A DNA stretch of 40,652 nucleotides from Paenibacillus daejeonensis DSM 15491 (lineage in GTDB: Bacteria > Bacillota > Bacilli > Paenibacillales > Paenibacillaceae), in the NCBI RefSeq assembly GCF_000378385.1, contig NZ_KB899683.1, positions 1 through 40,652 on the forward strand. Direction: 5' to 3'. The notes under the pieces were generated by a model. It saw nothing but the letters and a program-made list of their open reading frames with translations. It did no database searches and was not told where the DNA came from. A program made the position numbers and the translations under genes. Positions within the stretch are counted from its first letter, which is position 1; each line of letters starts with the position of its first letter. Below, in pieces: positions 1 to 40,098 of this stretch.

Positions 1-520
1 CCTCCTGCTCGATCAGTCGACTTAGGAAGCTGAGATCCGTCTCCTGCGACTGGTCGAGACGGTCATAGGTGATGTCGTCCGTTTCAAACAGCAGCTTCAT
101 GCCCGCAGTCTGGGCGATGCGCGTGGCGATCTGCTTCAGCGTCACCTTCTCCCAGGCTTTGGTCCGCGGCTCATCTTTGAGCCTTGAGTTACCAGGGAAG
201 GAAGCAGCCTGGATCGTCACTGCGTCCGGCGGACCGCCCAGCGACACCGTGTCCACATCAAAGGTGCCACACTGCAGCGTCCGCTTGGTTACGCCAGAAT
301 ACCAGTGCAGCAGATCCACCGACGCCTTGATGCGCTCACCCCGCTGTGGCAGCCACGGCCCCCTCCATTTGCCCTCCCGGTCCTCCAACTCGATCCGGAG
401 ATCATCTGCCCGCCCGTTGCCCGCATCTGTATAGCTCAGAGACATCAAAAAAGGCGCGATATCCAGAGAGATATCCACGCCTTGATAAACAATTACCGGT
501 ATTGCTTGTCTTATGGCCAT
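1..520 (-). CDS. Phage late control gene D-like baseplate hub protein (3' part off window)
   Basis: The first 173 residues are visible; the gene runs off the left edge. The reading frame starts at an ATG whose A is the last base of the LysM gene's stop (TGATG overlap), so the two genes are translationally coupled. Visible features include LEDREGKWRGPW, a CGTFDVD segment and a C-terminal IATRIAQTAGMKLLFE stretch. These match my knowledge of the P2 gpD / XkdQ / gp27-like hub family, which joins the tail tube to the spike. Its place directly after the tape measure and the gpX-like gene is the P2/Mu order. Family call is good; the exact subfamily is uncertain because the protein is cut. Confidence 0.8.
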   Translation of the reverse strand, partial: MAIRQAIPVIVYQGVDISLDIAPFLMSLSYTDAGNGRADDLRIELEDREGKWRGPWLPQRGERIKASVDLLHWYSGVTKRTLQCGTFDVDTVSLGGPPDAVTIQAASFPGNSRLKDEPRTKAWEKVTLKQIATRIAQTAGMKLLFETDDITYDRLDQSQETDLSFLSRLIEQE

Positions 521-21070: not shown

Positions 21071-21176
21071 CATCATAACATGGTTTTTTGCACGTGGACG
21101 GACATAGAGCGGCCATAAAGCGGCCATTTACTTGTGTCAATATACAAAAATCACTAATTTGGAAAGGGTGCTAATC

Positions 21177-22391
21177 TTGTCACTTATAGGTAAGCTAATA
21201 GATCAAATTAATGAAGCCGATATCCAACAACTCATTAATTCTCAAGTCCAAGAAAGTCGTGTCCTTGATTATAAAGAGCAATTACCTGGAAATACAGGTG
21301 ATGATAGACGCGAATTTTTATATGATGTTTCCGCGTTCGCGAACTCTGGCGGAGGTGAGTTAATATATGGCATATCGGAGATTCGCAACAACAATCAACC
21401 AACCGGCAGACCCGATGAGTTATTGGGTGTTTCCATTGACAACCCTGACACCCTTATAAGACAAATGGAAGATATAATCAGAGCAAACATTCAACCTCGT
21501 ATTTTTGGTATTCAAATAAAAGCAATAATATTAGAGTCAGGTCAGTATATTTTGTTAATCAGAATTCCTAACAGTCTCAACTCCCCTCATATGGTTCACA
21601 TGGGTGGAACTCAAAGGTTTTATACAAGAAACTCTGCAGGAAAACATCCAATGGATATAACAGAAATTCGCTCCGCTTTTCTTGCTTCAGCCGGCGTTTC
21701 GGAAAAAGTACGTGATCTACGTGTTTCTCGTATTTCAAAATTAAAAAATAATGCTGGATACACAGAATTAAAGTTCAATAATTCTATACTCGCAGTACAT
21801 TTAGTGCCTTTCAGTTCATTTGGAGAGGAATCGATTGATTTATCCATAGCTCCTGATCACTCTTCAAACCTATGGCCCTTCTTTACGACTGGACTAGACT
21901 ATAAGTATAATTTCGAAGGTTTTATAACGTTTTCAGCATGGCCAGGGGATAATGCTCCACATACGTATGTCCATTTGAACAGACGAGGTGTGATAGAATC
22001 AGTTGAGTCTGGAGGTATCCTTCGTGAAGAGGAGAATGGCAACAAAATTCTCCCAGCACCATACATTGAAGAACAAATTCTCGATAAGGTTATGCGATAT
22101 CTAAATGCCCTCCCGAATTTTGGAATAAGTCCACCTTTAGTTATTATGATAAGTTTGCTGGGTGTTAAGGGCTTCAATTTTGTTACACCTCAATCATATT
22201 TTAGACCTAATCATATTTTCATTGAAGAACAAGATTTATTGTTACCCGAAGTTCTTATAGAATCCTATCCAACAGATATTAATGAACTATCAATAGTCAT
22301 TAAGCCTGCTTTTGATGCGATGTGGAACGCTGCTGGATACCCCAATTCAAATAGTTATAATGCCCAAGGCCAATGGGTAAAGAGTAGATAA
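21177..22391 (+). CDS. AlbA_2 (Schlafen-like) domain protein
   Basis: 404 residues from TTG with an AAAGG site 9 nt upstream; other in-frame starts at 21132 and 21168 are possible. The N-terminal 150 residues are the Schlafen AlbA_2 domain: ESRVLDYKEQLPG, FLYDVSAFANSGGGELIYG and a C-terminal RFYTRNSAGKHPMD. Proteins with this domain bind nucleic acid or nucleotides and occur in anti-phage defence loci. The C-terminal 250 residues are unrecognised. AT-rich, plus strand: a probable passenger gene for superinfection defence (inference). Confidence 0.8.
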   Translation: MSLIGKLIDQINEADIQQLINSQVQESRVLDYKEQLPGNTGDDRREFLYDVSAFANSGGGELIYGISEIRNNNQPTGRPDELLGVSIDNPDTLIRQMEDIIRANIQPRIFGIQIKAIILESGQYILLIRIPNSLNSPHMVHMGGTQRFYTRNSAGKHPMDITEIRSAFLASAGVSEKVRDLRVSRISKLKNNAGYTELKFNNSILAVHLVPFSSFGEESIDLSIAPDHSSNLWPFFTTGLDYKYNFEGFITFSAWPGDNAPHTYVHLNRRGVIESVESGGILREEENGNKILPAPYIEEQILDKVMRYLNALPNFGISPPLVIMISLLGVKGFNFVTPQSYFRPNHIFIEEQDLLLPEVLIESYPTDINELSIVIKPAFDAMWNAAGYPNSNSYNAQGQWVKSR

Positions 22392-39538: not shown

Positions 39539-39793
39539 TGAGTGGGCGGGGATTTGCACCCCGCTACGGTTTGCACGTAGTTGTTCGTTGGTCGCCGGTA
39601 GGCTCAATGCCCGGACCAGACTTCACCGCAAAGCCGAATTGGATTTTATAGCAGGCTCAGGCCAGCAACTTAAACGCCGGGATTTGCACCCTACTTCTAC
39701 CGCACAGGCGTTGCGATCCCTTTTCCGCCACCACTCATAGAGCCTATTCAATTTTCAAAGAGCAACGTGGCCAAAGCCACGGCGGTTACCCGC
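39539..39793 (-). ncRNA. Highly structured RNA with T-loop hairpins and a pseudoknot
   Basis: Minus-strand elements, all exact complements: closing stem TGAGTGG/CCACTCA (39737-39731 with 39545-39539); stem AACGCC/GGCGTT (39712-39707 with 39678-39673); three hairpins with seven-base loops TGCAAAY (loops 39688-39682, 39575-39569, 39558-39552) on unlike stems GGG/CCC, CTACG/CGTAG, GCGGGG/CCCCGC; a D-arm-like GCGG/TCGC around AAAAGGGA (39728-39713); a GGT-CCGG/CCGG-ACC hairpin (39617-39590) whose loop GAGCCTA pairs with TAGGCTC (39746-39740), a 7-bp pseudoknot. The last T-loop arm stacks directly on the closing stem, as in tRNA. The 5' end would be made by the hammerhead. Class not recognised. 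Confidence 0.7.
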
Positions 39794-39840
39794 GACGCCT
39801 CCCGGCGTTTCGTCCGCTCCGCTGCGGACTCGTCAGGCGG
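39790..39840 (-). ncRNA. Hammerhead ribozyme, type I
   Basis: Reading the minus strand from 39840: stem I CCGC, CUGACGA (39836-39830), stem II GUCCGC / loop AGCGGA / GCGGAC, GAAA (39811-39808), stem III CGCC / GGGA tetraloop / GGCG, U16.1 C17 (39795-39794), stem I GCGG (39793-39790). Every core position agrees with the hammerhead consensus (CUGANGA, GAAA, A15.1-U16.1, H17=C, G10.1-C11.1). Cleavage is predicted between 39794 and 39793. The 5' strand starts at the base after the AbrB-like stop codon. Stem I is open, so this is type I. A small hairpin GTGGC/GCCAC follows at 39780-39767. Confidence 0.93.
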
Positions 39841-40098
39841 TCAGGACTCAGCGGCTGCCCTAGCAAGCTGCCGGATCGCATCGCGGCTGTACATCTTGCC
39901 ACCAAAGCTGACCAGGTCCTCCAGGCTTCCGGTGATGACGCAGCCGGGCTGATACTTCTTAAGGATGATTCTCTGATCCCCATCGACAAAAAACTCAATC
40001 GGGTCTCCTTCAGCAATGTTAAAAGAACGACGAATCTCTTTCGGGATGACCACACGACCCAGCTCATCGATTTTGCGAACTATACCAGTTGCTTTCAT
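39841..40098 (-). CDS. AbrB/SpoVT-like transcription regulator
   Basis: 85 residues from the ATG with GGGAG 8 nt upstream; an upstream in-frame ATG at 40152 overlaps the promoter element. N-terminal swapped-hairpin domain MKATGIVRKIDELGRVVIPK, RRSFNIAEGDPIEFF; C-terminal helical tail. Dimeric DNA-binding regulator, probably of early genes. The stop codon is directly followed by the hammerhead ribozyme, so its mRNA would end in a cyclic phosphate after self-cleavage. Confidence 0.9.
   Translation of the reverse strand: MKATGIVRKIDELGRVVIPKEIRRSFNIAEGDPIEFFVDGDQRIILKKYQPGCVITGSLEDLVSFGGKMYSRDAIRQLARAAAES

Follow-up and report, generated by a model that had tools for sequence, protein, structure and literature searches.

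The window, as we call the whole stretch of DNA analysed (40,652 nucleotides), is contig 25 of the 7.46 Mb draft genome of Paenibacillus daejeonensis DSM 15491, and its minus strand carries family matches to SbcC-like, RecT, DnaD-like loader, DnaB helicase, terminase, portal and tail tape-measure proteins. An AbrB/MazE-like gene on this strand is followed by a hammerhead ribozyme, a hairpin and a boxA-like signal, and from these matches the element sits early in a long, mostly one-way prophage operon. Its location ahead of early phage genes had been proposed in an earlier note on this DNA and holds, as the SbcC-like, RecT, DnaD-like and DnaB genes follow it on this strand. One ORF on the plus strand (21132-22391) matches a DNA helicase (phrog_12156, E 4.7e-8) and has the other matched genes nearby on the minus strand, so that a single transcript across the 40 kb is not established. 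The features considered here are the following.

39841 to 40095, minus strand: AbrB/MazE-like regulator, 84 aa (Pfam PF04014, E 9.4e-17; phrog_4681, E 7.2e-32).
39790 to 39840, minus strand: type I hammerhead ribozyme (RF00163, 30.4 bits; stems checked by script; relatives).
39818 to 39829, minus strand: 5' strand of stem II (39829-39824) and loop II (39823-39818), whose GCGG can pair with CCGC at 39785-39782 (pseudoknot).
39782 to 39793, minus strand: hairpin GCGG-GUAA-CCGC at the start of the 3' product (12 nt), excluding stem I (calculated energies; strict hammerheads of the R1 set, see below).
39766 to 39781, minus strand: hairpin CGUGGC-UUUG-GCCACG in a boxB-like position, between cleavage site and boxA.
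39745 to 39765, minus strand: boxA-like signal TTGCTCTTTGAAAATTGAATA, with 28 nt between it and the predicted cleavage site.
39540 to 39736, minus strand: about 200 nt of structured RNA whose ends are tRNA-like, with two GGGTGCAAATCCC hairpins (blocks in common with locus L035).

The hammerhead is real as a sequence, and its self-cleavage is a prediction. The stop codon of the AbrB/MazE-like gene (TGA, 39843-39841) adjoins stem I, which starts at 39840 as the earlier note had it, and direct reading and a script confirmed its complete type I core in order with C17 at the cleavage site. The CUGANGA...GAA consensus and a cleavage triplet ending in UH are represented at 39836-39794 by CUGACGA (DNA CTGACGA, 39836-39830), GAA (39811-39809) and GUC, with C17 at 39794 and the predicted cut between 39794 and 39793. 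There are three helices, all Watson-Crick by script and with stem I open: stem I of 4 bp (5' strand CCGC, 39840-39837; 3' strand GCGG, 39793-39790), stem II of 6 bp (39829-39824 with 39817-39812, loop AGCGGA at 39823-39818) and stem III of 5 bp counting A15.1-U16.1 (39808-39804 with 39799-39795). Stems I and II and the GGGA loop of stem III are thus as first described, and stem III had been read one pair short, as 4 bp. The Rfam model RF00163 (Hammerhead_1) matches over positions 1-45 of 45 with 30.4 bits (E 1.6e-5, 601 bases searched); the gathering score of 34, a curation threshold and not a biochemical feature, is missed, so that nothing shows in the window under default Rfam settings. At the gathering score there was no match in four related loci either. 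The earlier note had wanted the hammerhead given up if no model hit stood above threshold, which is formally the case (30.4 bits against 34), but conservation overrides this, since there is a 96%-identical second copy, and stems and loop II contact covary in relatives. Shuffles of the 81-nt hammerhead stretch fold as well as the stretch itself (z 0.39), so fold energy alone would have missed it.

The second copy lies on contig 27 of the same genome, where a stretch is 96% identical over 99 bases and again follows an AbrB-like gene (identified by eye). A pattern of the core plus GCGG-N4-CCGC gave at least 120 stretches in viral contigs and at least 117 in genome contigs, and a stem-checking script gathered 161 non-redundant hammerheads in related loci, the window's included. 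Loop II and the 3' flank could form at least 4 bp in 128 of these 161, compared with a mean of 84.3 and a maximum of 102 in 2000 permutations, and the two sides covary (GGCU/AGCC, GGUC/GACC, GGAUA/UAUCC, UUGAC/GUCAA). Excerpts of PMC3088659 report a pseudoknot of the same kind for bacterial and prophage hammerheads. The tertiary contact between stems I and II, not readable with certainty in the earlier note, can thus be deduced from the relatives, and in the window it would join GCGG of loop II with CCGC of the 3' flank (39785-39782). A scan of 394 family genomes with RF00163 and strict filters matched in 3 genomes; it is no census, since it missed both copies in the window's own genome. Several hammerheads per short viral-contig stretch were observed in L076, L079, L117 and L122, as published for prophages, and in a related genome two hammerhead-like motifs flank a small ORF after an AbrB-like gene (L005, 1500-1950, plus strand).

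Behind the predicted cut there is a boxA-like antitermination signal that went unnoticed in the earlier note. The host rRNA leader, read ahead of one 16S gene, contains TGTTCTTTGAAAACTGAACA, to which TGCTCTTTGAAAATTGAATA in the element is closely alike; seven places in the genome carry TTGAAAACTGAACA, a part of the rRNA leader, and one of the seven was read. Each of the two hammerheads is followed by the stricter phage form TTGNTCTTTGANAANTNAATA, which has no other occurrence in the 7.46 Mb genome. A hairpin is close by in the window, a covarying one is found in 14 relatives, and in the second copy the 3' strand of the hairpin is GCCGCG with pairing kept. A terminator-like match at 39781-39766 was rejected, as its T-rich stretch is the conserved boxA and conservation extends beyond it.

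Ribozyme and boxA are found together from both directions. On the ribozyme side, among 149 non-redundant hammerheads that were not chosen by boxA (the window's own left out), the motif TCTTTGA.AA lies within 130 nt downstream in seven and within 130 nt upstream in one, with 0.055 expected from shuffles. Since 142 of the 149 lack the strict boxA motif within 130 nt, cutting has other uses and the ribozyme-boxA element is a subset. The hairpin was aligned in 14 post-cleavage leaders from 23 elements, the nine omitted being four of AbrB type and five pseudoknot-like; six of its seven pairs are changed on both sides, and its covariation score of 0.340 compares with 0.137 in shuffles (none of 500 as high) and with 0.124 or less when partners were slid.

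On the boxA side, a model made of hairpin, linker and boxA with the ribozyme excluded (R1) found 34 places in 30 of the 394 family genomes. One place per genome was read (30 of the 34); a hammerhead core ends directly upstream in 20 and the strict three-stem test is passed by 17. Among the controls, none of 30 reverse complements, 1200 shuffles or up to 1800 random positions passed it. Sequences that went into R1 recur in at least three of these places (L291, L294, L304), and without them the core is present in 17 of 27 and the strict test passed in 14 of 27. Among places with E up to 1.4e-5 the core is found in 19 of 24; these E-values are per genome and rough, and about 4 of the 394 genomes could pass E 0.01 by chance. 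Ten of the 30 places have no intact core: five look decayed by eye (L293, L306, L314, L316, L319), and in the other five (L309, L312, L315, L317, L320), three of which are at E of 6e-4 or higher, no hammerhead was seen. L309 and L312 are hairpin-boxA elements with a terminator-like hairpin upstream instead. A phylum-wide sample gave R1 matches in 7 of 398 genomes, with 9 places and 6 cores. Hammerhead-like motif and hairpin stand together with no boxA in L005 and L006, where R1 has no match at E up to 1. Two loci with a hammerhead or near one (L263, L272) were omitted from the element counts because their boxA-like motif is at an ORF start. Scans with the 3' half of the ribozyme plus boxA (13 and 22 stretches) gave many chance coding matches with no core, narrow module patterns gave 2 and 1 stretches, and a pattern search of the 394 family genomes matched at three places, two in the window's genome and one in G031. 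At the level of sequence, ribozyme, hairpin and boxA are a composite element, found again in other viral contigs and in genomes of related bacteria.

In the window this element has a variant form, with hairpin and spacing unlike the common one. In the common form boxA TCTTT is 49 to 55 nt after the cut, behind the hairpin and a linker UUUACAUAKAU; in the AbrB form (the window, the second copy, L035 and L127) it is 17 to 32 nt after the cut. R1 scores the window with 16.8 bits (E 0.67) and the host rRNA leader itself with 16.6 bits (E 0.72), and as R1 gives the window only this E-value, its boxA rests on the direct match to the rRNA leader and on the second copy. In five further loci (L262, L265, L271, L273, L278) a pseudoknot seems, by eye, to take the place of the hairpin between ribozyme and boxA, with a stem such as CACCA/UGGUG and a loop GGGG facing CCCC just behind; core variants are CTGAATGA in L262 and L273 and CCGATGA in L278.

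Folding of the window product (39793-39745) gave two hairpins and an open boxA with z -2.28 against shuffles; among six post-cleavage leaders folded only the window's clearly beats its shuffles, the other five having z from -0.85 to 0.29. The 5' hairpin GCGG-N4-CCGC can form with four pairs in 16 of the 17 strict hammerheads of the R1 set, or in 13 of 14 without the three that come from a pattern demanding GCGG-N4-CCGC. With nearest-neighbour energies, the pseudoknot omitted, this hairpin in the window beats stem I by 1.9 kcal/mol, and stem I is nearly absent once 12 nt beyond the cut have been transcribed. The uncut 107-nt RNA folds best (-43.6 kcal/mol) in yet another way, with part of the core paired to sequence behind boxA. 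These calculated folds suggest that cleavage of the window ribozyme may be slow or partial.

The structured RNA behind boxA (39736-39540) has no Rfam or ARAGORN match, and as a tRNA, tmRNA or known RNA family it was rejected, having no match and a fold no better than shuffles. L035 (minus strand) has shared sequence blocks downstream of its boxA, ending in a T-arm-like CCGGGTTCGAGTCCCGG, and in L005 the second hammerhead-like motif is followed by this tRNA-like RNA reduced to its 3' end. In L010 (about 300-420, plus strand) a phage hammerhead is followed by a tRNA-like RNA (GGGGTGT ... CACCCCGA) that ARAGORN did not call. The second copy in the window's genome has ribozyme, hairpin and boxA and no structured RNA, so the latter looks optional. 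This speaks against the main role first assigned to the ribozyme, the separation of a regulator message from a structured RNA, and the earlier interpretation as a whole is partly supported.

Position behind a gene is a recurrent property of the element. The stop codon of an upstream ORF of at least 40 codons is -1 to 2 nt from stem I in 17 of 37 elements, compared with 173 of 11100 in the control. The genes upstream of other elements are AbrB-like, HicB-like or in many cases have no match, and those downstream include DNA ligase, methyltransferase, HNH endonuclease, RecT and SbcC-like genes. The carriers are probably temperate phages of Firmicutes, a host group suggested by the named relatives; the carriers L150, L198 and L203 are Paenibacillus. 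BLAST of the window region against phage records found 11 records, all matching inside the AbrB gene region only, and two full elements against phage records and a third query against plasmids found no match, and thus no cultured carrier among these.

In lambda nut the hairpin comes after boxA. The element resembles this site of N antitermination in having boxA and a hairpin in a phage early operon, and differs from it in that the hairpin precedes boxA and a ribozyme is added. With the boxB-boxA-boxC leader of rRNA operons, as described in excerpts of PMC10250234 and PMC4807359, it shares a hairpin followed by boxA close to where a long transcript begins, and its boxA is close to that of the host rRNA leader; unlike that leader, it lies inside a protein-coding phage operon and its 5' end is predicted to be made by a ribozyme. 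The hammerheads of Perreault et al. 2011 (RF00163; excerpts of PMC3088659) have in common with it the core, the three helices, the type I topology, the loop II pseudoknot and the prophage setting. Compared with what those excerpts present, the window's is below the Rfam gathering score, its stem I is abutted by a stop codon, its product can form a 5' hairpin and a boxA-like signal is directly downstream. The device is thus only partly as distinctive as the earlier note had supposed, since prophage hammerheads were already published there. That paper contains no word beginning with "rho" or "terminat", and in the open-licence literature we found no report of a natural hammerhead paired with boxA or antitermination; an excerpt of PMC10250234 does have an engineered hammerhead, placed at the 16S rRNA 3' end.

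We lean towards a mechanism in which the ribozyme trims the nascent mRNA and the hairpin-capped boxA leader then loads an antitermination complex. The analysis shows the sequence parts, their conservation and covariation and the ribozyme-boxA pairing; self-cleavage, NusB-S10 binding, antitermination and the reason for cutting are inferences. RNA polymerase would transcribe the AbrB-like gene and the element inside the early operon, the loop II pseudoknot would aid folding of the ribozyme, and the cut in the nascent RNA would come 47 nt past the stop codon. On the 3' side of the cut, the first 12 nt would then refold into the GCGG-N4-CCGC hairpin; because this is incompatible with stem I, the cut would not easily be undone, and the new 5' end would carry a structural cap. 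The RNA still held by the polymerase would now resemble a trimmed rRNA leader, beginning with two hairpins and then boxA as a single strand, and boxA would bind NusB-S10 and make the polymerase resistant to terminators for the long downstream operon. According to the part of PMC10250234 cited here, boxA binds NusB-S10 in the E. coli rrn operons and is both necessary and sufficient for the complex; boxB, boxA and boxC follow one another in this order there, with a second set ahead of the 23S gene. The cut would also take away the ribosomes that translate the upstream gene, possible competitors for S10-NusG contacts; an excerpt of PMC10931766 states that S10 bound to NusB cannot join the ribosome simultaneously.

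A further step can be suggested tentatively, as a possibility that we hold with clearly less confidence: the cut could be a widespread phage device that arms the antitermination complex, the operon switching from ribosome-coupled to NusB-S10-driven transcription, with a ribosome at the stop codon delaying the cut. If so, the arming cut would separate the elongating polymerase from the upstream message and the ribosomes on it and leave an rRNA-like trimmed 5' leader, and, with the stop codon against stem I, a terminating ribosome would tie the switch to translation of the upstream regulator.

Other explanations have to be weighed against the trimming and loading of a boxA leader. The ribozyme could be an ordinary mRNA processing device that divides phage messages into shorter ones, boxA marking, independently of cleavage, a point at which the operon needs help. 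Gene-flanking prophage hammerheads and the idea of processing are already in excerpts of PMC3088659, 142 of the 149 hammerheads go without the strict boxA motif, and the upstream genes vary (AbrB-like, HicB-like, unknown); we consider it unlikely nevertheless, given the close pairing of ribozyme and boxA from both directions and the fixed order of ribozyme, hairpin and boxA. Making the 5' end of the tRNA-like RNA at 39736-39540 is a very improbable role, since an RNA of this kind is present downstream in the window and L035 but missing from the second genome copy and, by eye, from L127.

The hairpin and UCUUUGANAA might instead be the target of a phage antiterminator or of a LoaP-like NusG paralogue, or NusB-S10 might act there as an RNA chaperone or translational repressor. 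An antitermination leader hairpin in a Gram-positive host is used by LoaP in Bacillus (dfn; excerpts of PMC12691694), boxA represses translation of suhB (excerpts of PMC10931766), and the seeming pseudoknot that replaces the hairpin in five loci, judged by eye, would fit a different factor. LoaP sites, however, bear a UNCG hairpin, of which none was seen by eye in alignment A2, and, unlike them, the element has a boxA. The boxA-like single strand is its most constant part and matches the host rRNA leader, which makes another factor, or another use of NusB-S10, quite unlikely in our opinion.

When bacterial and prophage hammerheads were first described, their function was said to be unclear (excerpts of PMC3088659). 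For one subset of them the recurring boxA partner gives a testable answer, namely processing coupled to processive antitermination. If the trimmed leader does load the complex, boxA would be in use outside rRNA in phages of Firmicutes, and a natural ribozyme would be doing the job of the nuclease that processes rRNA operons.
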